Positions 1 to 16,229 of a stretch of 64,000 nucleotides of DNA are shown here, one piece after another. Numbering within the stretch: position 1 is the first letter of the stretch; every line of letters starts with the position of its first letter. The notes under the pieces were generated by a model. That model saw nothing but the letters and a program-made list of their open reading frames with translations. It was not told where the DNA came from and searched no databases. The DNA lies in the NCBI RefSeq assembly GCF_013340205.1, contig NZ_BJTG01000003.1, forward strand, positions 62,001-126,000. The letters run 5' to 3'. Made by a program: the position numbers and the translations under genes. This DNA is from Anaeromyxobacter diazotrophicus (lineage in GTDB: Bacteria > Myxococcota > Myxococcia > Myxococcales > Anaeromyxobacteraceae).

Positions 1-2
1 CC

Positions 3-2285
3 CTGGCCGGCCTCGCCACCGAGCCGGTGAGCCAGCTGCCCGCGTGGCGGAGCTACCTGCTGGTCGGGGACGAGCTCCTGCAGCAGCTCCCCGTCGCTGG
101 CCCGGGCACGCCGCCCGAGCTGGTCGCGAAGCAGTCGCGGCAGCCCTGGTTCGAGGACGGTGGCACGGTCCAGGAGCTCTCCGTGGGGACGTTCCGCTAC
201 ACCTTCGCGACCGCGCTGCCGGAGGGCTTCGACCCGGCGGAGACGCTTCGCGTCGGCGTGTGGCTGCGCGAGGTGGTCCCCGGGACACCCGACACCAGCT
301 CGACCTTCGACTTCGTGCCCGCCGGCGGCGCGCCGCGGTCGCGCGAGCTCGTCCTCGACCAGAACTGCAACCACTGCCACGGGCTGCGCCAGGGGCACAA
401 CCGCTCGCGCACCGGCTGGAAGCTCTGCGTCACCTGCCACACCTACCAGCACGCCGACGCCGAGACGGTGGACCCGGCGGCGATGGCAGGCGCGACGCCC
501 GCCACGAACCCGAACCCGCTCGAGTTCGGCCGCCTCATCCACCGCGTCCACCGCGGGCGCCAGCTGCCGACGCTCTATCTGTCGAGCAGCACCGCGCCGG
601 CGCCGGCGCTCCCCCCGCCCGCGCCGGCGGTGGCGCTCCCGCTCCCCTTCGCGGCCAACCGCAACAAGTCGCTCCTCGGCCAGAAGTTCTCGGTGGTCGA
701 CGATCAGAACGGCGCCGGGGAGATGATCTTCGGCCAGGTCATCTCGCGGACCGACAACAACCAGCCGGCGCGGAACCAGCCCACCGGCCTCGTCTACCTG
801 CCCGCGGGGCAGGACTACCGCAACTGCGACGTCTGCCATGCCGGCGCGGCCCAGCAGGGCGAGGTGGTGACCACCATCGCCCGCCGGACCTGCCAGGGCT
901 GCCACCCCGACCTCTGGTATGGCGACGGCCCGACGGACCCGGTCCACCTCGCCCACCCCGGTGGGCCGCAGGCGGACGACACGCGGTGCGCCGGCTGCCA
1001 CGTCGACCCCGGCGCGATCGTGCCGCACTCCGAGGCGCACCAGGCCCCCTTCAAGAGCCCATACTACAACACACTCTCCGTCAAGCTGGTGGCGGTGAGC
1101 GGCATGGTGGCGGGCGGCTTCCCTACTGTGACCTTCTCGGCCAGAGACCTGAACGGCCCGCTCACGCCGTCGCTGACGGCGCCCGTCCCGTTGGCCGACG
1201 CGGGACGGAGCGGCCGGGCGAGCCCGGTTCCGCGCGCGCTCGCCAGCGTCAGCTTCACGCTCATCGGCCCGTCCACCGAGTACCTGAGGACCAGCCCGAC
1301 CGTCAGCGACTCGACCAGCGCGACTTCGTCTCCTCCCCGCCTGGCCGTGGAGGACCCCGTCGTCAAGGGCCAGTACTCCTACACCTTCACGAAGGCCCTG
1401 CCAGCGACCGCCTCCGGCACGTGGACCGTCGTGATCACGGCCAGCCGGAGCGTCAAGACCGCCGTCTACGACAACACCGGCAAGTTCACGTGGCCGTACA
1501 CGGGCGAGACCCTCGCCGAGACGACCGACAACGACGTCCAGTACGTCGACCTCGCCGCGGGGGTCTGGCCGGGCGGCACGCCCGTGCCGCGGCGGCGGGT
1601 GGTGGACACCGCGAAGTGCAACGTGTGCCACCTGCGGCTCCAGATGCACGGGAGCCGCAACCAGGTGCAGTACTGCGTGACCTGCCACACCGCCGACTTC
1701 ACCGACTTCGGCTCGAGGCCGAAGCGGGCCGACAAGTCAGGCATGGTCAACCTCTCGACGGTCACGACCTCGGCCACCACCGGGCTCCCGGTGGCCGCCA
1801 CCTACGACGGCATCGAGGAGCGCTCGGTGCACCTCAAGGTGATGCAGCACCGGATCCACACCGGGTACCGGACCGGCAGCGCCTCGCTCGGCCTCGCCAA
1901 GCCGTTCGTCATCGTCTTCGGCAGCCCGTACTTCTTCGACGACGTGACCATGCCGAACATGATCCGGAACTGCACGCTGTGTCACGTCGGGAACGCGTTC
2001 GAGATCGAGAACATCGATTCGAGGCAGGCCTACACCGTCGCGAACGAGACGCCCAACCTCCAGCACCAGGGAACCCCCGCCGCTCCGGCACCGAGCACCC
2101 ATTCGCCGAACGAGCCGCACACGCCGCCCATCACCGCCGCGTGCATGGGCTGCCACGACACGCAGGCGGCCCTCACCCACTCGCGGCAGTTCACGACGCT
2201 CGACAACGTCGAGCAGTGCCTCCCCTGCCACGGGCGCGACGGCGTGAGCCCGGTGGCGGCCGTCCACGGGGTGAGCCTCCCATGA
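3..2285 (+). CDS. Decahaem c-type cytochrome, OmcA/MtrC family (5' partial)
   Basis: Outer-surface multihaem cytochrome expected to deliver respiratory electrons to extracellular acceptors. The frame is open to the window edge, so the signal peptide and true start lie upstream; a GTG at 27 is only an internal candidate. Ten CxxCH motifs are visible in two groups of five: nt 366-1001 (CNHCH, CVTCH, CDVCH, CQGCH, CAGCH) and nt 1617-2232 (CNVCH, CVTCH, CTLCH, CMGCH, CLPCH). About 200 residues without haem separate them. This beta/pentahaem/beta/pentahaem layout is that of MtrC and OmcA. The stop overlaps the next start (ATGA). It heads a five-gene operon with a beta-barrel and small cytochromes, which supports a porin-cytochrome role. 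The family call is firm; the electron acceptor is unknown. Confidence 0.9.
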   Translation: MAGLATEPVSQLPAWRSYLLVGDELLQQLPVAGPGTPPELVAKQSRQPWFEDGGTVQELSVGTFRYTFATALPEGFDPAETLRVGVWLREVVPGTPDTSSTFDFVPAGGAPRSRELVLDQNCNHCHGLRQGHNRSRTGWKLCVTCHTYQHADAETVDPAAMAGATPATNPNPLEFGRLIHRVHRGRQLPTLYLSSSTAPAPALPPPAPAVALPLPFAANRNKSLLGQKFSVVDDQNGAGEMIFGQVISRTDNNQPARNQPTGLVYLPAGQDYRNCDVCHAGAAQQGEVVTTIARRTCQGCHPDLWYGDGPTDPVHLAHPGGPQADDTRCAGCHVDPGAIVPHSEAHQAPFKSPYYNTLSVKLVAVSGMVAGGFPTVTFSARDLNGPLTPSLTAPVPLADAGRSGRASPVPRALASVSFTLIGPSTEYLRTSPTVSDSTSATSSPPRLAVEDPVVKGQYSYTFTKALPATASGTWTVVITASRSVKTAVYDNTGKFTWPYTGETLAETTDNDVQYVDLAAGVWPGGTPVPRRRVVDTAKCNVCHLRLQMHGSRNQVQYCVTCHTADFTDFGSRPKRADKSGMVNLSTVTTSATTGLPVAATYDGIEERSVHLKVMQHRIHTGYRTGSASLGLAKPFVIVFGSPYFFDDVTMPNMIRNCTLCHVGNAFEIENIDSRQAYTVANETPNLQHQGTPAAPAPSTHSPNEPHTPPITAACMGCHDTQAALTHSRQFTTLDNVEQCLPCHGRDGVSPVAAVHGVSLP

Positions 2286-3475
2286 CCTCCCTCTCCGCCT
2301 TCGCCCGGCGCCTCGGCGCCGCCGCGCTCCTCGCGACGCTGGCGGGCTGCTCCTCGCCGCGCGTCGAGCGGGCGCCGGCCGACGTGACGTTCAGCGTCGG
2401 GATCATCGACGGCAACCCCGGGATCCCGGTCGTGGGCGGCCCGCCCGGGAACGGCGGCGCGCCGCAGACCGCCACCACCGTCCACCTCAAGTTCCTGGGC
2501 GGGGCGCCCGGGCCCTTCACCGTGGTGGCGCAGCGCCTGGCGCGGCCGCCGGCCGCCGGCCAGCCGGTGGACTGGACGTCCATCCCGGCCAGCACCGTCC
2601 CGCTCGTCCCGGCGGCGGAGGCGGTGGGCCTGTCGAAGGAGGCCTGGAACACCGAGTTCCAGGCCGCGCTCGGCTACCTGCAGGTCTGGGACTACGGCAT
2701 CTACGACGTGGACATCAAGGCCGCCTACGACGACCAGCGGCTCTACCTGCAGCTCCAGTGGCGCGACTCGACGCAGAGCCTCGCCCACCACGACTGGATC
2801 TACCGGGTCGACCCGGCCACCGGGCTCGGCGCGTTCGCGCGCCGGACCACCGACGAGGACGTCGTCTACCTCTCCTTCCTCATCGACCCCGCCGCGGCGG
2901 GGCGCGCCGCCTCGGGCTGCACCACCGCCTGCCACGTGAGCGAGCGGCGCGGCGCGACCACCCCCGACGACCTCGCCTACCGGTTCACGATGCACGCCGC
3001 CGCGCCGGGCCTGCGCGCGGACTCGTGGGCATGGCACGCCGGCCGGACGAACCCGCTCGGCCTGGCGGACGACGCCTCCTGGGACGAGGCGGGCCTGTAC
3101 GGCGACTGCCCCGACCCGCCGGCCTGCACGCAGCTGTGCGCCGGCGGCGAGGCGCCGCCGTGCAGCACGCCCCCGTACGCCGGCGACGACGACGCGCCGG
3201 CGCCGGCGCCGCTCTTCATGTCGGCGGACGGGATCGACGCCAGCCCCGCCTTCCTCTTCCTCGGCGGTGCCGGCGCGCCCGCAGCGGTGCCCTTCGATCC
3301 CGGCGCGGCGGCCTCGGCCGGCGCGACCCTCCCCGGCGCGGCGCTCCAGCGGCCGAGCGCGCACCGCGGCGACGTGAGCGCCCGCGGCACCTGGGCGAAC
3401 GGCGTCTGGACCCTCGAGCTCTCCCGCGACCTGGTGACGTCAGACCCGAACGACGCGCAGTTCCCCCTCCAATGA
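2282..3475 (+). CDS. Lipoprotein with ethylbenzene-dehydrogenase-like haem domain
   Basis: Predicted 397-aa lipoprotein: hydrophobic signal ending in LATLAGC with Cys23 as the lipidation site. The middle (about residues 120-200) has the strand pattern of EB_dh-type haem-binding domains (DVDIKAAYDDQRLYLQLQW) found in b/c-haem electron carriers. It also carries a CTTACH (CxxxCH) motif near residue 222, a possible extra haem site. Further Cys pairs follow (CPDPPACTQLC, then APPCSTPPY). Start ATG overlaps the stop of the decahaem gene by four bases, and its own stop overlaps the next start, so translation is probably coupled. Likely a periplasmic or outer-membrane-anchored electron-transfer partner. 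The EB_dh assignment is by eye and moderate. Confidence 0.7.
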   Translation: MTSLSAFARRLGAAALLATLAGCSSPRVERAPADVTFSVGIIDGNPGIPVVGGPPGNGGAPQTATTVHLKFLGGAPGPFTVVAQRLARPPAAGQPVDWTSIPASTVPLVPAAEAVGLSKEAWNTEFQAALGYLQVWDYGIYDVDIKAAYDDQRLYLQLQWRDSTQSLAHHDWIYRVDPATGLGAFARRTTDEDVVYLSFLIDPAAAGRAASGCTTACHVSERRGATTPDDLAYRFTMHAAAPGLRADSWAWHAGRTNPLGLADDASWDEAGLYGDCPDPPACTQLCAGGEAPPCSTPPYAGDDDAPAPAPLFMSADGIDASPAFLFLGGAGAPAAVPFDPGAAASAGATLPGAALQRPSAHRGDVSARGTWANGVWTLELSRDLVTSDPNDAQFPLQ

Positions 3476-3903
3476 CCCGCGCCCTCCCAGCCGCCCTCAC
3501 GCTCACCTTCGCGCTCGCCTGCGGCGGGCCACGCACCGGCGCGGCCGTCCCCGCCGCCGCGCGCGGCCCGGCGGCGACCTACGCCGACGTCTCGGCCGTC
3601 TTCGCGATGAGCTGCGCCACCCAGGGGTGCCACACCGGCCACCCGCCCGCCAACACGCCGGACTCGTTCGACCCGCAGTACGCCTACGACGCCCTGGTGG
3701 GCCAGCCGGCCCTCCAGGTCCCCTCCCTGCCGCTCGTCGACCCGGGGAACCCGGACCACAGCTACGTGGTCCTGAAGGTCCGCGGGACCGCCTCGGGCGT
3801 GGGCGGCGTCGCCACCCGCATGCCGCTCAACGCCCACCCGCTGTCGGACGAGGACCAGGCGGCCCTCGAAAGCTGGATCCTCGCCGGAGCCTCCCATGAC
3901 TGA
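3472..3903 (+). CDS. Small lipoprotein with atypical CX4CH haem-type motif
   Basis: 143-aa exported protein: signal peptide with a possible lipobox (FALAC, Cys17). The only haem-type motif is CATQGCH (Cys48, Cys53, His54), which has four rather than two residues between the cysteines. CX4CH is a recognised variant in some c-type cytochromes, often in short PSCyt-like or lipoprotein cytochromes. The C-terminal half (a VDPGNPDHSYVVLKV segment, then a MPLNAHPLSDEDQAALESWI-type helix) is the usual fold end of such domains. Start and stop overlap the neighbours by 4 and 8 bases within the conduit operon. It is probably a monohaem periplasmic or outer-membrane relay. Haem attachment is inferred, not shown. 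Confidence 0.7.
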   Translation: MTRALPAALTLTFALACGGPRTGAAVPAAARGPAATYADVSAVFAMSCATQGCHTGHPPANTPDSFDPQYAYDALVGQPALQVPSLPLVDPGNPDHSYVVLKVRGTASGVGGVATRMPLNAHPLSDEDQAALESWILAGASHD

Positions 3904-5038
3904 ACGCCTCCTCCTGCGCGCCGCCGCCGCGGCCCTCCTCGGCCTGGCCCTGCTCGCCGCGGCGCCGGCGGGCGCGCGCTCGACCGTGAACGTGTCGGGC
4001 TCCATCTACGTGGACCAGTGGTGGCTCTCGAAGAAGGCCGCCAGCGACCGCACCGTGGGGACCATCACCCCGGACGGCGCCCTCAAGGTGTCGGTGGACG
4101 TCCACGACGAGCTCGCCATCTCGGCCAAGGCCTGCTTCAGCTGCCACGGCATCGAGATGGAGCACTTCAGCCTCGACTACACGCCGAAGGCCTACTTCAA
4201 CGTGTCGGCGGGCCGGGTGGTGGTGCCGTTCGGCGAGTACGCGAACCGCGTCGACCCCTCGAGCCACCGCACGGTGAGCGCGCCGCTCATCTTCGACATG
4301 GGCCGGATCCCCTACGGCGACCGGACCGGGTGGAACCTCGGCGTCGTGCCCGCGCCCTACGTCGACACCGGCGTGGTCGTCTACGGCCAGACCTGGATCG
4401 GCGAGCGGGTCCAGGTCTGGTACGGCGGCTACGGGGTGGCCGGGCTCCGGGGCTCGAACGACGTGGACTTCGCCTCCATGCGCTCGTCCTACTACGCGGA
4501 CAACAACCGCGTGCCGAGCGGCGGCGCGCGGCTCGCCCTCACCTGGTCGCAGCAGGATCCCTCCTTCGTGATCGGCGACGTGAGCCTGGGCGGCTCCTTC
4601 ACCGGCGGCCGCTACGACCAGGCCGGCACGCTCGGCTACAAGGCCTGGGGGGTGGACGCGCAGACGCGGATCGGCCCGTGCGTGGTGCGCGCCGAGTACG
4701 CGGCGCGCAGGACCGACGTCGATCGCAGCGCGGCCGGGTACCGCTTCGACGTGATCGACCCGTACTTCGACAAGCGCGGCTGGTACGCCGAGCTGGAGCA
4801 CCCGCTCGGCAAGTGGGTGGGCGCCGTCTACCGGGTCGAGCGCATGGAGCGCCTCGGGATCCCGGTCCCGGGGACGCTGCCGGTCATCGGCCCGGAGGCG
4901 AGCATCAAGCGGTACACCGCCGGGCTCATGATCACGCCGGCCGCCTCCCTCTACCTCAAGGCGAGCTACGAGTACTGGGAGATGACCGGCATCGGCGCCA
5001 TCCACTCGACCCACGCCGGGATCGGGGGGAGCTTCTGA
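3896..5038 (+). CDS. Outer-membrane beta-barrel carrying one CxxCH
   Basis: 380-aa protein with a clear signal peptide (cleavage after about residue 27, AGA-RS). The rest is composed of alternating polar/aromatic strands rich in Tyr, Trp and Gly (for example VQVWYGGYGVAGL) and ends in Phe (GIGGSF), as outer-membrane barrels do. Unusually it holds a haem motif CFSCH at residues 80-84, after the second or third strand. It occupies the MtrB-like porin position in the operon, between surface cytochrome and small cytochromes, but is about half the length of MtrB. I infer an electron-conduit porin. A simple phosphate/metal porin is the alternative, but that would not explain the haem motif. Confidence 0.75.
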   Translation: MTERLLLRAAAAALLGLALLAAAPAGARSTVNVSGSIYVDQWWLSKKAASDRTVGTITPDGALKVSVDVHDELAISAKACFSCHGIEMEHFSLDYTPKAYFNVSAGRVVVPFGEYANRVDPSSHRTVSAPLIFDMGRIPYGDRTGWNLGVVPAPYVDTGVVVYGQTWIGERVQVWYGGYGVAGLRGSNDVDFASMRSSYYADNNRVPSGGARLALTWSQQDPSFVIGDVSLGGSFTGGRYDQAGTLGYKAWGVDAQTRIGPCVVRAEYAARRTDVDRSAAGYRFDVIDPYFDKRGWYAELEHPLGKWVGAVYRVERMERLGIPVPGTLPVIGPEASIKRYTAGLMITPAASLYLKASYEYWEMTGIGAIHSTHAGIGGSF

Positions 5039-5382
5039 TGCTCGCCGCCACCCTCGGGGCCGCGCTCGCGCTGCAGCTCGCGCTCGGCCAGCAGGCGGAC
5101 TGGGACCCGCGCGACGACGGCCCGGGGACCATCGACGTGTCCGACTACCCGGAGGCGCAGCAGAAGGAGTACGCGCTCTTCAAGGTGAAGTGCGCGAAGT
5201 GCCACCCGGTGTCGCGCCCCATCAACTCCCAGTACGACGCGACCAACTGGAAGCGCTACATGAAGCGCATGATCCGCCGGCCCAACTCCGGCATCAACGA
5301 GCAGCAGGCGGTCGCGCTCTACGACTTCCTCAAGTACTACAGCTCCCGGACCGCCCCGAAGGGCGGCGGCGAGCAGCCCTGA
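5038..5382 (+). CDS. Small monohaem c-type cytochrome
   Basis: 114-aa periplasmic protein with a short signal peptide (residues 1-18) and one haem motif, CAKCH at 52-56. It is followed by a helical tail containing Met residues (YMKRMIRRP) that could supply the distal ligand. The final helix (EQQAVALYDFLKYYS) matches the C-terminal helix of class I cytochromes. Its ATG shares one base with the stop of the barrel gene, so it is the last member of the conduit operon. Expected role: soluble shuttle between inner-membrane or periplasmic donors and the outer-membrane complex. The next gene starts 13 bases downstream but is a signalling gene. Confidence 0.85.
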   Translation: MLAATLGAALALQLALGQQADWDPRDDGPGTIDVSDYPEAQQKEYALFKVKCAKCHPVSRPINSQYDATNWKRYMKRMIRRPNSGINEQQAVALYDFLKYYSSRTAPKGGGEQP

Positions 5383-5395
5383 CCGGACGCCGACG

Positions 5396-7288
5396 GTGGC
5401 CCTCGCCCTCGCCCACGCGCAGAGCTCGCTGCGCTTCCGCCTCTTCGCCGCGACGGTGGTCGTCGTGGGCGCGGCGCTCGCGTTCTCGATGGTCGGATTC
5501 GAGCACGTGGCGCGCGGCGTGGTCCTCGACGCCACCCGCTCGCACCTCGCGGCGCGGGCGCGGGAGGTGCTCGAAGCCACCCAGCGCTTCCAGCGCGAGC
5601 GCGCGCTCACCACCCGCAGCTGGGCCGAGGCGGACGCGATGCAGCTGTCGCTCGAGTCCGGCGACCCCAAGTTCGCGGAGGACTACCTCCTGCGCTCGAT
5701 CCAGGACCAGGGCGGCGCGTTCGCCGTGGCGGCCCTGCTCGACGCCCGGGGGCGGGTCGTCTGCGCCGTGCACGCCGCGCCGGAGGGCGAGCGCCACGGC
5801 AGGTCGCTCGAGGCGCTGCGCGGGCGGCGCGTGGCGCTGCGGGCGGTGGCGGAGGTCGAGGGCGGCGCGAAGCTGGCGGTGACGGTGGCGACGGCCCAGG
5901 CGCTGGGCGCCGCGGCCGAGGAGAGCCCGGCCCTGGTGCTGGCCGCGCCGGTCCGCGACTTCACCGGGGACCTGGTGGGGGTGGTGGTGGGGGTGGTCTC
6001 CCGGCCCGCGGTGGGCCGGCTCCTGGCCGAGATCGCCGGCGCGGACCCGGCCTACGTCCCGGTGGTGGCCGACGCCGAGCGGCGGCTCGTCACCACGCTG
6101 CCGGGCGTGTCGGCCCCGGCGGTCGAGGCGCTGCTGGCGCCGGGCGAGGACGGCGGCCGCGGCCTCGAGCGCCACGCGGCCGGGGGCGGCCGGTGGCTCG
6201 CGATGCGGACCGCGCCCGGCGCCGAGACCCCGGGCTGGAGCGCGCTCATGGCGGTCTCCGAGCAGGAGGCCTACGGGACGCTGCGCCGGCTGCGGCGGCT
6301 GCTCATCGGGATCTTCTCGCTGGTGCTCGCCGGGGCGAGCGTCGCCAGCATCGCCGCGCTCCGCCGCGCCGCGCAGCCGCTCGCCGAGGTGGCGGCCTCG
6401 ATGGTGCGCGTGTCGACGGGCGACCTCACCACCCGCCTGCCCGACGCCTACCGCGACGAGCTGGGGCGGCTGGTCCAGTCGTTCAACACCATGGTCGCCG
6501 AGGTGGAGCGCTCGCACGGCGAGCTGAAGCGGACCGAGGCGCTGCGGCGCGAGATGCAGATCGCGCAGTCCATCCAGACCGCGATCCTGCCGCGCGCCCC
6601 CGCGCTCCGGGAGTTCGAGCTGGCGGCGCGCATGAAGGCCGCCGAGGACGTCGGCGGCGACCTCTACGACATCCTGGCCTTCCCCGACACCTTCTGGCTC
6701 GTCATCGGCGACGTGTCCGGCCACGGCCTCCACGCCGGCCTCATCATGCTGATGGCGCAGGCCGCCGCCCACGCCGCCATCACCAGCGCGCCCCACGGCG
6801 CGCCGGCCGAGGTGGTCGCCTGCGTGAACCGGGTGCTGCACGAGAACGTGCGCCGGCGCATGGGCCGGGACGACTACCTCACGCTCATGGTGGCGCGGTA
6901 CGCCGGGGCCGGCCGCTTCGTCGCGGCCGGGGCGCACCAGCCGGTCCTGGTCGCGAGCCCGGGCGGCCGGGTCGACGCGGTCGAGCCGGCCGGCCCCTGG
7001 TGCGGGGTCATGGAGGACGTCCGGCGGCACCTCGTCGAGTACGAGCTCCAGGTCGAGCCGGGGGGCCTCCTCTGCCTCACCACCGACGGGATCGTGGAGG
7101 CGCGCGGGGCCGGCGACGCGCTGTACGGCCAGGAGCGGCTCGTCGAGGTCCTCTCCGGGCGCGCGGGCGCGAGCGCGCCCGAGGTGCTGGCGAGCGTCTT
7201 CGCGTCGGTGGAGCGCTTCGCGTCCGTCCAGGACGACGACATGACCGCCGTCGTGCTGCGGCGAAGGGAGACCGATGACACCGTCTGA
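5396..7288 (+). CDS. Membrane HAMP-PP2C (RsbU/SpoIIE-type) phosphatase
   Basis: 630-aa membrane receptor-phosphatase. TM1 lies near residues 18-40, an extracytoplasmic sensor (CHASE4-like, about 40-295) follows, TM2 is near 300-318, and HAMP runs about 320-375 (ends SFNTMVAEVERS). The C-terminal PP2C domain is complete: EDVGGDLYD, GDVSGHGLHA, TTDGIVEARG and the final DDDMTAVVL supply the metal-binding aspartates. Such enzymes dephosphorylate a STAS-type antagonist in partner-switching pathways. The two following genes, overlapping in order, encode exactly the HATPase and STAS-like partners. Start is GTG at 5396, the only initiator placed before TM1. The ligand is unknown. Confidence 0.9.
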   Translation: MALALAHAQSSLRFRLFAATVVVVGAALAFSMVGFEHVARGVVLDATRSHLAARAREVLEATQRFQRERALTTRSWAEADAMQLSLESGDPKFAEDYLLRSIQDQGGAFAVAALLDARGRVVCAVHAAPEGERHGRSLEALRGRRVALRAVAEVEGGAKLAVTVATAQALGAAAEESPALVLAAPVRDFTGDLVGVVVGVVSRPAVGRLLAEIAGADPAYVPVVADAERRLVTTLPGVSAPAVEALLAPGEDGGRGLERHAAGGGRWLAMRTAPGAETPGWSALMAVSEQEAYGTLRRLRRLLIGIFSLVLAGASVASIAALRRAAQPLAEVAASMVRVSTGDLTTRLPDAYRDELGRLVQSFNTMVAEVERSHGELKRTEALRREMQIAQSIQTAILPRAPALREFELAARMKAAEDVGGDLYDILAFPDTFWLVIGDVSGHGLHAGLIMLMAQAAAHAAITSAPHGAPAEVVACVNRVLHENVRRRMGRDDYLTLMVARYAGAGRFVAAGAHQPVLVASPGGRVDAVEPAGPWCGVMEDVRRHLVEYELQVEPGGLLCLTTDGIVEARGAGDALYGQERLVEVLSGRAGASAPEVLASVFASVERFASVQDDDMTAVVLRRRETDDTV

Positions 7289-11384: not shown

Positions 11385-12278
11385 ATGTTCACGAGACGTG
11401 ACTTCCTGAAGTGGAGCACCAGCTCGGCGGCGGCGCTCGGGCTGTCGCAGACGGGGCTCTTCCGCCTGCAGCAGGCGCTCGCGGCGGAGAGCTCGCCGCC
11501 CCTCATCTGGCTGCACGGCGCCAGCTGCTCGGGGTGCTCCATCGCCGCGCTCAACGCGGTGTCGCCGACCACGGTCGGCGACGTGCTCCTCAACAAGGTC
11601 TCGGCCAAGTACGACGCGCTGCTCATGGCGGCGGGCGCGGATCAGGCCATCCGCGCCATGGACCAGGCCGCGGCCGCGGGCCAGTTCATCCTGGTGGTGG
11701 AGGGCGGGGTCCCGGTCGCGGCGGGCGGCCGGTACTGCACCATCGGCGATCGCGGCGGCCGGCCCATCACGCTCCTCGACGCGGTCAACGACCTCGCGCC
11801 GCGCGCCTCGCGCGTGCTCGCGGTCGGCACCTGCGCCGCCTACAAGGGCGTGGCCGGCACCGGCGCCAACCCCACCGGCGTGACCCCGCTCTCGACCGTG
11901 CTGCAGGGCAAGACGGCGAAGCCGGTCATCAACGTGCCGGGCTGCCCGGCGCCGCCCGACCAGCTCTTCAAGATCATCGTGGGCCTGCTGGCCGGCGGCG
12001 AGTACGCGCTCGACCTGGACGGCCGTCCGGGCACCTGCTTCCCGCACACCGTCCACTTCACCTGCCCCCGCAAGCACCTGCCCAAGGCGAAGGCCTTCGG
12101 CGAGCCGGGCTGCCTCCTCAACCTGGGCTGCCAGGGCAAGGTGACGATGGCGATGTGCCCCAAGCACAAGTGGAACAACGGCAAGAACTGGTGCGCGCAG
12201 GCGGGCCACCCCTGCATCGGCTGCGCGGCGCCCGAGTTCCCCGCGTCGCCCCTGACGCCGGCCGGCACCTTCATCTGA
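11385..12278 (+). CDS. Periplasmic NiFe hydrogenase small subunit
   Basis: 297-aa Fe-S subunit that relays electrons from the NiFe site. The N-terminus has a twin-arginine export signal (TRRDFLKW). Proximal-cluster cysteines are seen in CSGCS, GTCAAYKG and PGCPAPP; medial/distal ligands lie in the C-terminal third (HFTCPRKH, GCLLNLGC, MAMCPKHKWN, NWCAQAGHPCIGC). At the NWC position, standard enzymes with a medial 3Fe-4S cluster have Pro; the Cys here suggests a 4Fe-4S cluster. The chain ends soon after GCAAPEF and lacks the C-terminal membrane helix of HyaA/HybO-type subunits, so the enzyme is soluble or held by partners. First gene of a three-gene unit; the large subunit begins 20 bases later. 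Confidence 0.93.
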   Translation: MFTRRDFLKWSTSSAAALGLSQTGLFRLQQALAAESSPPLIWLHGASCSGCSIAALNAVSPTTVGDVLLNKVSAKYDALLMAAGADQAIRAMDQAAAAGQFILVVEGGVPVAAGGRYCTIGDRGGRPITLLDAVNDLAPRASRVLAVGTCAAYKGVAGTGANPTGVTPLSTVLQGKTAKPVINVPGCPAPPDQLFKIIVGLLAGGEYALDLDGRPGTCFPHTVHFTCPRKHLPKAKAFGEPGCLLNLGCQGKVTMAMCPKHKWNNGKNWCAQAGHPCIGCAAPEFPASPLTPAGTFI

Positions 12279-12298
12279 GCGGACGAGGGCCAGACACC

Positions 12299-13744
12299 AT
12301 GGAGAAGCGAATCACGGTCTCACCGGTGACGCGCATCGAGGGGCACCTCGGCCTCGAGCTCGAGATCAGCGAGCGGGGCACCGTCCTCGCCGCCTACGCC
12401 TCCGGGACGCTGTTCCGCGGGTTCGAGAGCATCATGCGCGGCCGGGATCCCCGGGACGCCATCCACCTCACCCAGCGCATCTGCGGGGTGTGCCCGGTCC
12501 CGCACGCGCGCACCGCGGTCGAGGTGCTGGAGGCGGCGTTCGGCGTCCAGGTCTCCCGGAACGCCACCCTGCTCCGGAACCTGGTCCAGGGCGCGGGCTC
12601 CGTCTCGGATCACATCCTCCACTTCTACCACCTGGCCCTGCTCGACTACGTCCACGGGCCGGCCATGCCGCCGTACACCCCGGCCATCTCGGCCGACCAG
12701 CGGTTCTCCGAGGCGGAGGCGGCGGTGTTCGCCGACCACTACCTGCAGGCGCTCGAGATGCGGCGGCGCGCGCAGGAGATGGGCGCGCTCTTCGCCGGGA
12801 AGCTCCCGCACGTCATGACCTTCGCGCCGGGGGGCGTCACCCAGCAGCCGACCGCCGCCAGCGTCGCCGACTTCCGGAGCGGCCTCGACCAGCTGATCCC
12901 GTTCATCGAGAACGTGTACATCCCCGACGTCATGAAGGTGGCCGAGCGGTACCCCGACTACCTCGAGATCGGGGCCGGGCCCGGCAACCTGCTCTCCTTC
13001 GGCGCCTATCCGGACGGCGCCGGCGGCCAGCTCTTCGAGGCGGGGAAGTTCCTGGAGCACGGGCACCCCCGCGGCGAGCACAGCTGGAACTGGGCGGAGC
13101 GGCCGGGCGACGAGCACGCGCGCCGCCACGTCTTCCCCCTCACGGCCGGCGACGTCGCCTCCATCGACGAGTCGGTGAAGCACGCCTTCTACGGCGGCCC
13201 GCGCCGTCACGGCGGCGACCCCGCCACGCCCAACCCGGACAAGCCCGGCGCCTACTCCTGGGTGAAGGCCCCGCGCCTCGGCGACGAGGTGTTCCAGGTG
13301 GGCGCGCTGGCGCGCATGATCGTCAGCGGCAACTACCGCGGCGGGCTCTCGGTCATGGACCGGCTCCTCGCCAACGCCTTCGAGACCGCCAAGGTGGCCG
13401 GCGCCATGCGGACCTGGCTCGACGGGCTCGCGCTGGACGGGAGCGGCTACCAGCCGGTCACGACCATGCCCAAGGCCGGCCAGGCGGTCGCCCTGACCGA
13501 GGCGCCGCGCGGCGCGCTGGCGCACTGGCTCGAGTACGCGGACGGCAAGGTGACCGGCTACCGGATCATCACGCCGACGTCCTGGAACGCCTCGCCGCGC
13601 GACGACCGCGAACGGCCCGGCCCCATCGAGCAGGCGCTGATCGGCGTGCGCGTCGCGGATCGCAGCCAGCCGGTGGAGGTCTACCGGGTGATCCACTCGT
13701 TCGACCCGTGCATGGGCTGCGCCGTGCACACCACCATCGTCTGA
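12299..13744 (+). CDS. NiFe hydrogenase large subunit
   Basis: 481-aa catalytic subunit for H2 oxidation or evolution. Both NiFe ligand motifs are intact: RICGVCP at about residue 59 and DPCMGCAVH at the C-terminus. After the final His only TTIV remains, the short peptide that a HyaD/HybD-type endopeptidase would remove after nickel insertion. RIEGHL near the N-terminus is the usual family signature. ATG at 12299 is chosen because the longer open frame upstream lies inside the small-subunit gene. The protein is exported with the small subunit by the Tat pathway. No maturation gene (hyp or endopeptidase) lies in the window, so these must be supplied elsewhere. Confidence 0.95.
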   Translation: MEKRITVSPVTRIEGHLGLELEISERGTVLAAYASGTLFRGFESIMRGRDPRDAIHLTQRICGVCPVPHARTAVEVLEAAFGVQVSRNATLLRNLVQGAGSVSDHILHFYHLALLDYVHGPAMPPYTPAISADQRFSEAEAAVFADHYLQALEMRRRAQEMGALFAGKLPHVMTFAPGGVTQQPTAASVADFRSGLDQLIPFIENVYIPDVMKVAERYPDYLEIGAGPGNLLSFGAYPDGAGGQLFEAGKFLEHGHPRGEHSWNWAERPGDEHARRHVFPLTAGDVASIDESVKHAFYGGPRRHGGDPATPNPDKPGAYSWVKAPRLGDEVFQVGALARMIVSGNYRGGLSVMDRLLANAFETAKVAGAMRTWLDGLALDGSGYQPVTTMPKAGQAVALTEAPRGALAHWLEYADGKVTGYRIITPTSWNASPRDDRERPGPIEQALIGVRVADRSQPVEVYRVIHSFDPCMGCAVHTTIV

Positions 13745-13782
13745 GCCGCGGAACGCTCGTGCAATCTTCACGGAGGGGAGCC

Positions 13783-14643
13783 ATGTCGAAGCAGGCGAAC
13801 GGAGTGGTCTCGAGGCGCGCCTTCCTCACCGGCGCGGGCGGCGCCGCGGCTGCGGCCGCGGGCCTGGTCGCGCTGGGGCTGCCGGCGGCGGCGGAGGCGC
13901 AGGCGGCGCCGTCGGTCCCGTGGCCGCTGCCGGTGCTGAACCCCGACGTCGCGCGCGACGCCGGGTACTTCGGCTACTGGACGAACGACCCCTGGAAGAA
14001 CACCAACTACGGCTGCGCCTACGGCGTGGCCTCGGCGCTGCTCGCGTCCATCCGGAGCGCGCTCGGCCCGGGCTCGCCCTGGGACGGGCTGCCGCTCGAG
14101 ATGTTCAAGTGGGGCAAGACCGGCTGCGTCGAGTCGGGCACGCTCTGCGGCGCGCTGGCCGGCGCGCTGCCCATCTTCTCCCTGGCCGCGCCGGCCTCGG
14201 TGGTGGAGATGGGCGGGGACCTCCTCCGCTGGTACCAGGAGACGCCGCTCCCGTCGATGGAGATGGACTGGCTCGACCCCAAGCGGCGCTACCCGCAGCA
14301 GGCGCAGAGCGTCTCCGGCTCGCCGCTGTGCCACATCTCGGTGTCGAGCTGGTGCAAGGTCTCCGGCAAGCTGTCCGGGTCCACCGACCGGAAGGCGCGC
14401 TGCGGGAAGATCACCGGCGACGTGGCCAAGATGGCGGCCATCATCCTCAACCGCTTCGGGTCGAGCTCGAAGTACGTGCCCATCTATGCGGCGCAGCCGG
14501 ACCTCTACGCCGAGTGCGTCCACTGCCACATCGACGCGCCCCCGCCGCCCACCCCGGACGGCGTGCGGCTCAACAACAGCCTCGGCATCTCGAACTGCAA
14601 GACCTGCCACCCCGACGCGGCGCCGGTGATGAGCAAGAAGTAG
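13783..14643 (+). CDS. Tat-exported split-Soret-type dihaem cytochrome (C_GCAxxG_C_C family)
   Basis: 286-aa protein, ATG at 13783 after the SD GGAGGGGAG. The N-terminus is a Tat signal (SRRAFLTGAGG). The body has the C_GCAxxG-like pattern YGCAYGVASALL followed by TGCVESGTLCGAL, and two haem motifs close the chain (CVHCH near 245, CKTCH near 273). This combination matches split-Soret cytochrome c precursors known from sulfate reducers. Additional cysteines (PLCHISVSSWCK, ARCGK) could hold an Fe-S centre. As the third gene of the hydrogenase operon it probably takes electrons from the small subunit, replacing a membrane cytochrome b. The partner role is inferred from position. Confidence 0.85.
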   Translation: MSKQANGVVSRRAFLTGAGGAAAAAAGLVALGLPAAAEAQAAPSVPWPLPVLNPDVARDAGYFGYWTNDPWKNTNYGCAYGVASALLASIRSALGPGSPWDGLPLEMFKWGKTGCVESGTLCGALAGALPIFSLAAPASVVEMGGDLLRWYQETPLPSMEMDWLDPKRRYPQQAQSVSGSPLCHISVSSWCKVSGKLSGSTDRKARCGKITGDVAKMAAIILNRFGSSSKYVPIYAAQPDLYAECVHCHIDAPPPPTPDGVRLNNSLGISNCKTCHPDAAPVMSKK

Positions 14644-15026: not shown

Positions 15027-16229
15027 TCACTTCCCCCCCCGGCCCGTGGTGCCCGTGGCCTTGTGTGCCTGCCCGATGAGCTCGACGAACAGCTGCCGGA
15101 ACTGCTCGAACAGCGTCTCGAAGGCGCCGATCTCGTCGTCGGCCGACGGCACGATCTCGAGGTCGAACTCGCCGCCCACCACCCGCGTCGCCACCTGGAT
15201 CATGTGCTGGAGCCGCTTGACGATGAGCACCTGGAAGACGAGGACGAAGAGGACGGCCAGGAGGACCATGAGGGCCGCCACCCCGAGCACCGCCTGGCGC
15301 TGCCCGGAGCGCATCTCGTCGTAGACCGCGGTGATGTCGCGGAGGACGAAGACCGCGCCCACCTTGGCGCCGGACACGTCGTGGATCGGGAACACGCCCC
15401 GGGCCAGCGTCTTGCCGCCCCTCGACAGGATCTCGAGCGGCACGCCCTCGTCCGGGAGGTCGGCGATCTTGCCGTTGTACTGGAAGATCTCGTTGTCGTC
15501 GGAGGTGTTGTCGGCGAGGAGGAGGTCGGGCATGTCGGCCCAGTTGTTGCGCTGGCCCGCCGTCGCCCGCAGGGTGGCCCACTTCTTCTCGTCCATCCGG
15601 CCCTTCGAGAGCAGGAGGCCGTAGTCGTCGCCGCTCACCTTCTTGATCTGGCCGAGGAAGCCGCCGATCTCCTTGCCGAGCTCGAGGTAGCCGATGGGGC
15701 GGCCGCCCTCCTCCACCGGCACCAGCACGCGCAGCACCATCCCGGTGAACCCGAGGTCGAGACCCGTCACCATGCGGCGCTCGCGGGCGACCCGCGCCAG
15801 CGTGACGCGCTCCACGAAGTCGCCGTGCATGTCGGGCGTGCCGACGCGGAGGACGTTGCGCAGGCCCTTGGCGTTCATGTCGCCGGCCTGCTCGGGCTCC
15901 CAGTAGTTCCAGTGCGTGATGCCGAAGCGGCCGCGCCAGTCGCGGTAGAGCGGCTGCGACAGCGTGAGCAGGCGCGCCGGATCGCGCGAGATCATCCCGG
16001 CCCGCACCTCCGGGTCGCGGGTCAGGGCGGAGATCGAGGCGGACATGAGCTCGGTGCTCGTCCGCTCGACCTCGGAGAACGCCACCGCGGCGCTCCGGAT
16101 CGAGTCCTTGGTCAGGCGCTCGGCGTTCTGGTCGTAGATGCGGTTGAAGTACAGCACCAGCCCGATGGCGCCGAGGCTGAGCCCTCCGATGATCAGGAGG
16201 AGGATCTTGAATCTGATGGTCTTGATCAT
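15027..16229 (-). CDS. Double-Cache-type membrane receptor with HAMP but no output domain
   Basis: 400 aa. TM1 is at about residues 8-28. A large periplasmic sensor (about 30-310) has dCache features (the region RDWRGRFGITHWNYWEP and a second sub-domain ending GAVFVLRDI). TM2 is at about 316-340, followed by a HAMP linker (KRLQHMIQVATRVVGG onward). The protein stops about 20 residues after HAMP: no MCP, kinase, GGDEF or phosphatase domain. It is preceded by two Roadblock genes and followed by a 66-aa gene, so output probably goes through protein contacts with these. The ligand is unknown; amino acids, organic acids or haem-type ligands are typical for Cache domains. Confidence 0.8.
   Translation of the reverse strand: MIKTIRFKILLLIIGGLSLGAIGLVLYFNRIYDQNAERLTKDSIRSAAVAFSEVERTSTELMSASISALTRDPEVRAGMISRDPARLLTLSQPLYRDWRGRFGITHWNYWEPEQAGDMNAKGLRNVLRVGTPDMHGDFVERVTLARVARERRMVTGLDLGFTGMVLRVLVPVEEGGRPIGYLELGKEIGGFLGQIKKVSGDDYGLLLSKGRMDEKKWATLRATAGQRNNWADMPDLLLADNTSDDNEIFQYNGKIADLPDEGVPLEILSRGGKTLARGVFPIHDVSGAKVGAVFVLRDITAVYDEMRSGQRQAVLGVAALMVLLAVLFVLVFQVLIVKRLQHMIQVATRVVGGEFDLEIVPSADDEIGAFETLFEQFRQLFVELIGQAHKATGTTGRGGK

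Follow-up and report, generated by a model that had tools for sequence, protein, structure and literature searches.

Results

The window analysed here, a stretch of 64,000 nucleotides from Anaeromyxobacter diazotrophicus, carries three closely spaced genes on its forward strand which encode the two subunits of a [NiFe] hydrogenase and a haem protein.

11385..12278, + strand: [NiFe]-hydrogenase small subunit, 297 aa, Pfam domains and Tat signal
Small-subunit cluster ligands, by sequence: C48/C51/C150/C187; H224/C227/C243/C249; C258/C270/C277/C280
12299..13744, + strand: [NiFe]-hydrogenase large subunit, 481 aa, NiFeSe_Hases domain and metal motifs
13783..14643, + strand: two-haem split-Soret-type protein (gene 3), 286 aa, C_GCAxxG_C_C family, fold of 1h21

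The small- and large-subunit genes are separated by 20 bp and the large-subunit gene and gene 3 by 38 bp. Downstream, the neighbouring gene (15027-16229) lies on the opposite strand and encodes a Cache-domain sensor-like protein, so that no cytochrome b gene follows; the three-gene unit proposed in a first-pass annotation of this DNA is borne out in both coordinates and gene order. Promoter and terminator scans of the locus, which carry little information at 75% G+C, detected nothing.

The small subunit starts with MFTRRDFLKW, matches the Tat signal model PF10518 above the Pfam cut-off, contains Oxidored_q6 and NiFe_hyd_SSU_C domains and ends in EFPASPLTPAGTFI. No C-terminal TM helix is present, as the first-pass annotation had read, the best hydropathy of any 19-residue window starting in the last 60 residues being 0.67. 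The ligand sets of all three Fe-S clusters are complete. The medial cluster has four cysteines as in 2wpn, the fourth being C270 within the motif NWC, and is presumably of the [4Fe-4S] type. An extra cysteine adjoining the first cluster motif, the mark of oxygen-tolerant hydrogenases, is absent from the small-subunit sequence. The large subunit (NiFeSe_Hases, 364.8 bits) carries both Ni-Fe-binding motifs, RICGVC and DPCMGCAVH, and with the ligands for three Fe-S clusters these provide the RxCGxC and DPCxxCxxH signatures of a Group 1 [NiFe] hydrogenase. The position occupied by selenocysteine in [NiFeSe] enzymes is here a cysteine (the C of DPC), encoded by TGC.

For both subunits the best matches among solved structures are soluble periplasmic [NiFeSe] hydrogenases, with which the trio enzyme shares the fourth medial-cluster cysteine and the lack of a membrane helix. 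The cysteine at the selenocysteine position, together with scores below the curated NCBIfam [NiFeSe] cut-offs (431 bits against 780 for NF045518, 238 against 470 for NF045520 and 493 against 600 for NF033181), is the reason for not filing it as a [NiFeSe] enzyme. The C-terminal TM helix and the cytochrome b/HybB-type gene in the operon that characterize the Hya/Hyb type are both missing. In a tree of 49 hydrogenases the three known trio enzymes (see below) form a clade with support of 100/100, whose sister is a hydrogenase from a genome of the same genus (G040; 100/98), followed by five Desulfobacterota enzymes (100/99); the clade lies outside the fully supported clade of E. coli Hya and Hyb, while its order relative to the selenocysteine clade is left unsettled by the tree. 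As judged by sequence, the trio enzyme is a selenium-free hydrogenase near the soluble periplasmic [NiFeSe] group. Given these matches and this clade, the absence of a membrane anchor, which had been put forward as a special feature of the locus, is ordinary for a soluble [NiFeSe]-like branch and was overstated. In a Desulfobacterota genome (G253) a related soluble hydrogenase is directly preceded by the gene of an eight-haem cytochrome (L226 5049-6404), another cytochrome pairing inside the same hydrogenase clade.

Hydrogenase large subunits are normally made with a C-terminal extension, which a protease cuts off after the last histidine. In the window enzyme DPCMGCAVH is followed by the four residues TTIV, and the other two trio enzymes have tails of the same length (VTVI and VTVV), against at least 16 residues in the sister enzymes and mostly 11-24 in the rest of the sampled enzymes; within that sampled set a four-residue tail recurs in one Archaeoglobaceae enzyme, and three myxobacterial enzymes have no tail at all. 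No HycI-type maturation protease is encoded near the trio, which lies on contig C3, the two such genes of the window genome both being on contig C1; the sister hydrogenase in G040 has a HycI maturation protease gene directly downstream. The short tail and the lack of a nearby protease gene make protease-independent maturation possible. A second hydrogenase of the window genome (G000; L033 6600-9200, contig C1, minus strand) has a large subunit that stops right at the last histidine, and such tail-less subunits, ending in DPCMVCTVH or DPCMYCTVH and then a stop, also occur in G040 and G005 (L150, L151). Selenocysteine hydrogenases with an in-frame TGA were considered for these three genomes and rejected, the codons being ordinary stops directly after the motif. 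Several related Desulfobacterota large subunits (L202, L203, L206, L208, L155 and others) have the pattern DPU..C..H with an in-frame TGA and are probable selenocysteine enzymes.

Gene 3 was described in the first-pass annotation as a Tat-type C_GCAxxG_C_C protein with two CxxCH motifs, and it does have an RRAFL Tat-type start, the motifs CVHCH and CKTCH, and a PF09719 score of 30.1 bits against a gathering cut-off of 27. Its sequence matches the split-Soret cytochrome 1h21 with an E-value of 2.4e-25, and an AlphaFold2 model built with 75 homologues (pLDDT 83) has 1h21 as its sole strong structural match (Foldseek E 5.8e-12; VIA Z 27.6, rmsd 2.7 over 221 residues). Cys78, Cys122, Cys183, His184, Cys207 and both CxxCH motifs, invariant in the 75-row alignment, are kept, so that the CxxCH pair, the invariant cysteine set and the CHxS histidine of the split-Soret family are all found in gene 3. 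With 135 bits against a cut-off of 400 on the split-Soret equivalog model NF047622, it is a divergent relative of the family and not a canonical member. An insert after Tyr65 (WTNDPxxxTNY) is present in the gene 3 proteins of the trios and missing from nearly all other homologues. In the split-Soret tree the trio proteins form a long branch of 1.31 changes per column, apart from the paralogues resident in Anaeromyxobacter; an origin of gene 3 by duplication of these resident genes was therefore rejected, its neighbours in the tree being weakly supported Bacillota sequences. A second split-Soret-type gene of the window genome (contig C8 283537-284376; L031, L022) keeps the C-terminal histidine and has no hydrogenase nearby. 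A search of plasmids with gene 3 gave no match.

The histidine that lies C-terminal to the second CxxCH motif in the split-Soret family is retained in 101 of 104 two-haem homologues, a set that includes some near-identical sequences, and the three exceptions are the hydrogenase-linked proteins, which read CHPDAAPVMSKK, CHPDAQPVMTKK and CHPDSNPVMGKR there. Alanine, glutamine or asparagine occupies the aligned position in these proteins, and all three share the triplet Pro-Val-Met (PVM), whose methionine stands three residues beyond it. From its conservation the lost histidine is presumed to be a second haem ligand; with His184 the only conserved extra histidine left, a different ligand or a vacant site is probable for one of the haems, and Met283 is the candidate replacement. 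The loss of the C-terminal histidine thus suggests a changed ligation of one haem, perhaps by Met283, tuned to the hydrogenase partner.

The same trio was found in two other species: in Anaeromyxobacter oryzae, where the gaps measure 21 and 41 bp, and in A. oryzisoli, where they measure 19 and 35 bp. The third gene, on whose presence in orthologous operons the first-pass annotation had staked its reading, is there in both. Across the three species the trio proteins are 76-83% identical with dN/dS of 0.23-0.43 (Nei-Gojobori). Chance adjacency was rejected on the recurrence of gene order and near-identical gaps in A. oryzae and A. oryzisoli and on the purifying selection; the flanks there consist of PhnD-like and chemotaxis-type genes, unlike those in the window. 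None of the other Anaeromyxobacteraceae searched has the trio, and none of the more distant hydrogenase loci inspected carries gene 3. Two peptide patterns were run against 84,980 species genomes and the best 80 of 94 split-Soret loci, from bacteria and archaea, were followed up; no hydrogenase was found beside the 78 of these outside A. oryzae and A. oryzisoli within flanks of up to 10 kb (several shorter). Nor was one found within 1.5 kb of 30 split-Soret loci of Desulfobacterota, a phylum covered by samples of 395 and 390 genomes, and in the sampled genomes the nearest Desulfobacterota hydrogenases share no positions with split-Soret matches. Elsewhere split-Soret genes stand alone or beside other redox genes: in Thermincola next to a NapC/NirT-type cytochrome gene, in Pyrodictiaceae next to the gene of a cytochrome b561-type protein. 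In D. desulfuricans, ssc is numbered Ddes_2150 and the gene of a putative NiFe hydrogenase Ddes_2135 (PMC5701242), so that the two are not direct neighbours. The trio is a real, conserved and narrowly distributed operon, whose co-occurrence is of limited statistical weight since the three trios belong to one lineage and count as one event. No description of an operon combining a hydrogenase with a split-Soret gene was found in the literature searched, with most subscription papers outside reach.

A putative metal-reduction conduit occupies 1-5400 of the window and comprises an OmcA/MtrC-family decahaem cytochrome gene (27-2285), further CxxCH proteins and an ORF (3896-5035) without a Pfam match. 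Matches to TIGR03507 were mapped across 12 genomes of the family. The one at the window start has two-piece counterparts in A. oryzae, at a distance of some 630 kb from its trio, in A. oryzisoli, on a contig other than that of its trio, and in G040, where neither a trio nor any split-Soret gene was found. A conserved unit of conduit and trio was rejected on this basis, and the suggestion that the trio feeds the conduit finds no support in synteny; with the counterparts unlinked elsewhere, the proximity of the two in the window is not evidence of a shared path. The window genome also has a separate Hyb-type operon encoding a small subunit, a ferredoxin-like protein with a Tat signal, a multi-helix membrane protein without a Pfam match and a large subunit.

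Discussion

We consider it on balance probable that the product of the trio is a soluble, periplasmic hydrogenase of the uptake type that has a haem partner of its own, from which electrons pass on to other cytochromes. The folded large subunit would be exported via the Tat pathway, carried by the small subunit, and H2 would be split in the periplasm at the Ni-Fe site, whose ligands are present. Electrons would run along the three predicted [4Fe-4S] clusters to the small-subunit surface, where the diheme gene 3 protein, which also retains the invariant non-haem cysteines of its family, would take them up as a docked third subunit or as a dedicated shuttle and hand them to other periplasmic c-type cytochromes; any decahaem protein of the genome could be the end acceptor. 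H2 oxidation then need not involve a membrane quinone-reducing subunit, and a quinone bypass by this hydrogenase is plausible. This relay is supported by the conserved order and spacing of the genes, the Tat signals, the absence of a TM helix and of a cytochrome b gene, the full ligand sets, the position of the enzyme in the hydrogenase tree and the 1h21 fold of gene 3. The Hyb-type operon probably fills the quinone-linked role elsewhere in the same genome, and soluble [NiFeSe] hydrogenases depend on soluble c-type cytochromes in Desulfobacterium autotrophicum (PMC2702500) and Desulfovibrio alaskensis (PMC4215793). The periplasmic route from H2 to cytochromes proposed in the first-pass annotation is accordingly the natural reading of an anchor-free exported hydrogenase with a haem protein third in its operon, and through these precedents it is already known in kind. 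Against the relay through gene 3, the literature searched yielded no biochemical evidence of split-Soret proteins accepting electrons from a hydrogenase, and G040 has the sister hydrogenase although no split-Soret gene was found there. What is new is a dedicated split-Soret partner for a hydrogenase, and a partner that is altered; the route itself is familiar.

We tentatively extend this reading to a three-part hydrogenase with a split-Soret diheme subunit, in which one haem has been re-ligated from His/His to His/Met or to an open site and the four-residue tail of the large subunit matures without a protease of its own, a combination that may well not hold in full. To our knowledge no physiological partner has been established for the split-Soret family, of which a structure has been solved. 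The hydrogenase operon names a donor for it, and the role can be tested with H2, haem spectra and gene deletion; a three-part hydrogenase, if true, would be, as far as we know, the first assigned electron donor of the family. It would also add another wiring of H2 oxidation to periplasmic cytochromes, lacking a membrane subunit, in metal-reducing soil myxobacteria. The pairing is found in three soil bacteria of one family and in no other genome searched.

The varied settings of split-Soret genes (alone, or with NapC-type or cytochrome b neighbours) and the sister hydrogenase of G040, which does without one, would also fit mere co-transcription, with the hydrogenase reducing general periplasmic cytochromes and gene 3 having a separate redox task. 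This is unlikely, however, as order and close spacing are kept across three species, in two genera of the genome collection, despite differing flanks, and the hydrogenase-linked gene 3 proteins have sequence features of their own. We give still less credence to gene 3 as a terminal reductase, in which a haem lacking its second ligand would use H2-derived electrons to reduce a small substrate in the periplasm, such as peroxide, a nitrogen oxide or a metal ion. The replacement, in the three hydrogenase-linked proteins, of a histidine present in 101 of 101 others is in its favour, and an open coordination site would permit substrate binding; but the PVM methionine, conserved in all three, could itself be a ligand, and we know of no catalytic motif or tested activity in proteins of the gene 3 type. 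Delivery of electrons to the quinone pool, from gene 3 to an unlinked cytochrome-to-menaquinone reductase, has a precedent in the Desulfovibrio periplasmic hydrogenases that employ cytochrome c3 together with a menaquinone:c3 oxidoreductase (PMC4215793), but seems similarly improbable with no such membrane gene near the trios and a Hyb-type operon already offering a quinone route.

A soluble hydrogenase with its own haem partner, as favoured here, can be set beside four known systems. The E. coli hydrogenases-2 (hybOABC) and -1 (hyaABC) have homologous catalytic subunits but differ in the membrane subunits of their operons and fall in another, fully supported clade. No enzyme beyond the three trios is closer than the Group 1 hydrogenase of G040 (L147), their sister in the tree with 47% identity, but it has a HycI protease gene next to it, a normal C-terminal tail and no split-Soret gene. 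HysAB of Desulfovibrio (PDB 2wpn, 1cc1, 4kl8) resembles the trio enzyme in lacking a membrane helix, in the fourth medial cysteine and in its soluble cytochrome acceptors, which for the trio are predicted; it differs in having selenocysteine where the trio has cysteine and, as in the sampled selenocysteine enzymes, a tail of at least 13 residues where the trio has four, whereas the trio has a split-Soret gene in its operon and belongs to a separate clade. The split-Soret cytochrome c of Desulfovibrio desulfuricans ATCC 27774 (1h21) shares with gene 3 the fold, two CxxCH motifs near the C-terminus, the invariant cysteine set and the CHxS motif; the two proteins are 32% identical, and while 1h21 ends in KFVNHP with its histidine, gene 3 has no C-terminal histidine, bears an extra segment after Tyr65 and is paired with a hydrogenase.
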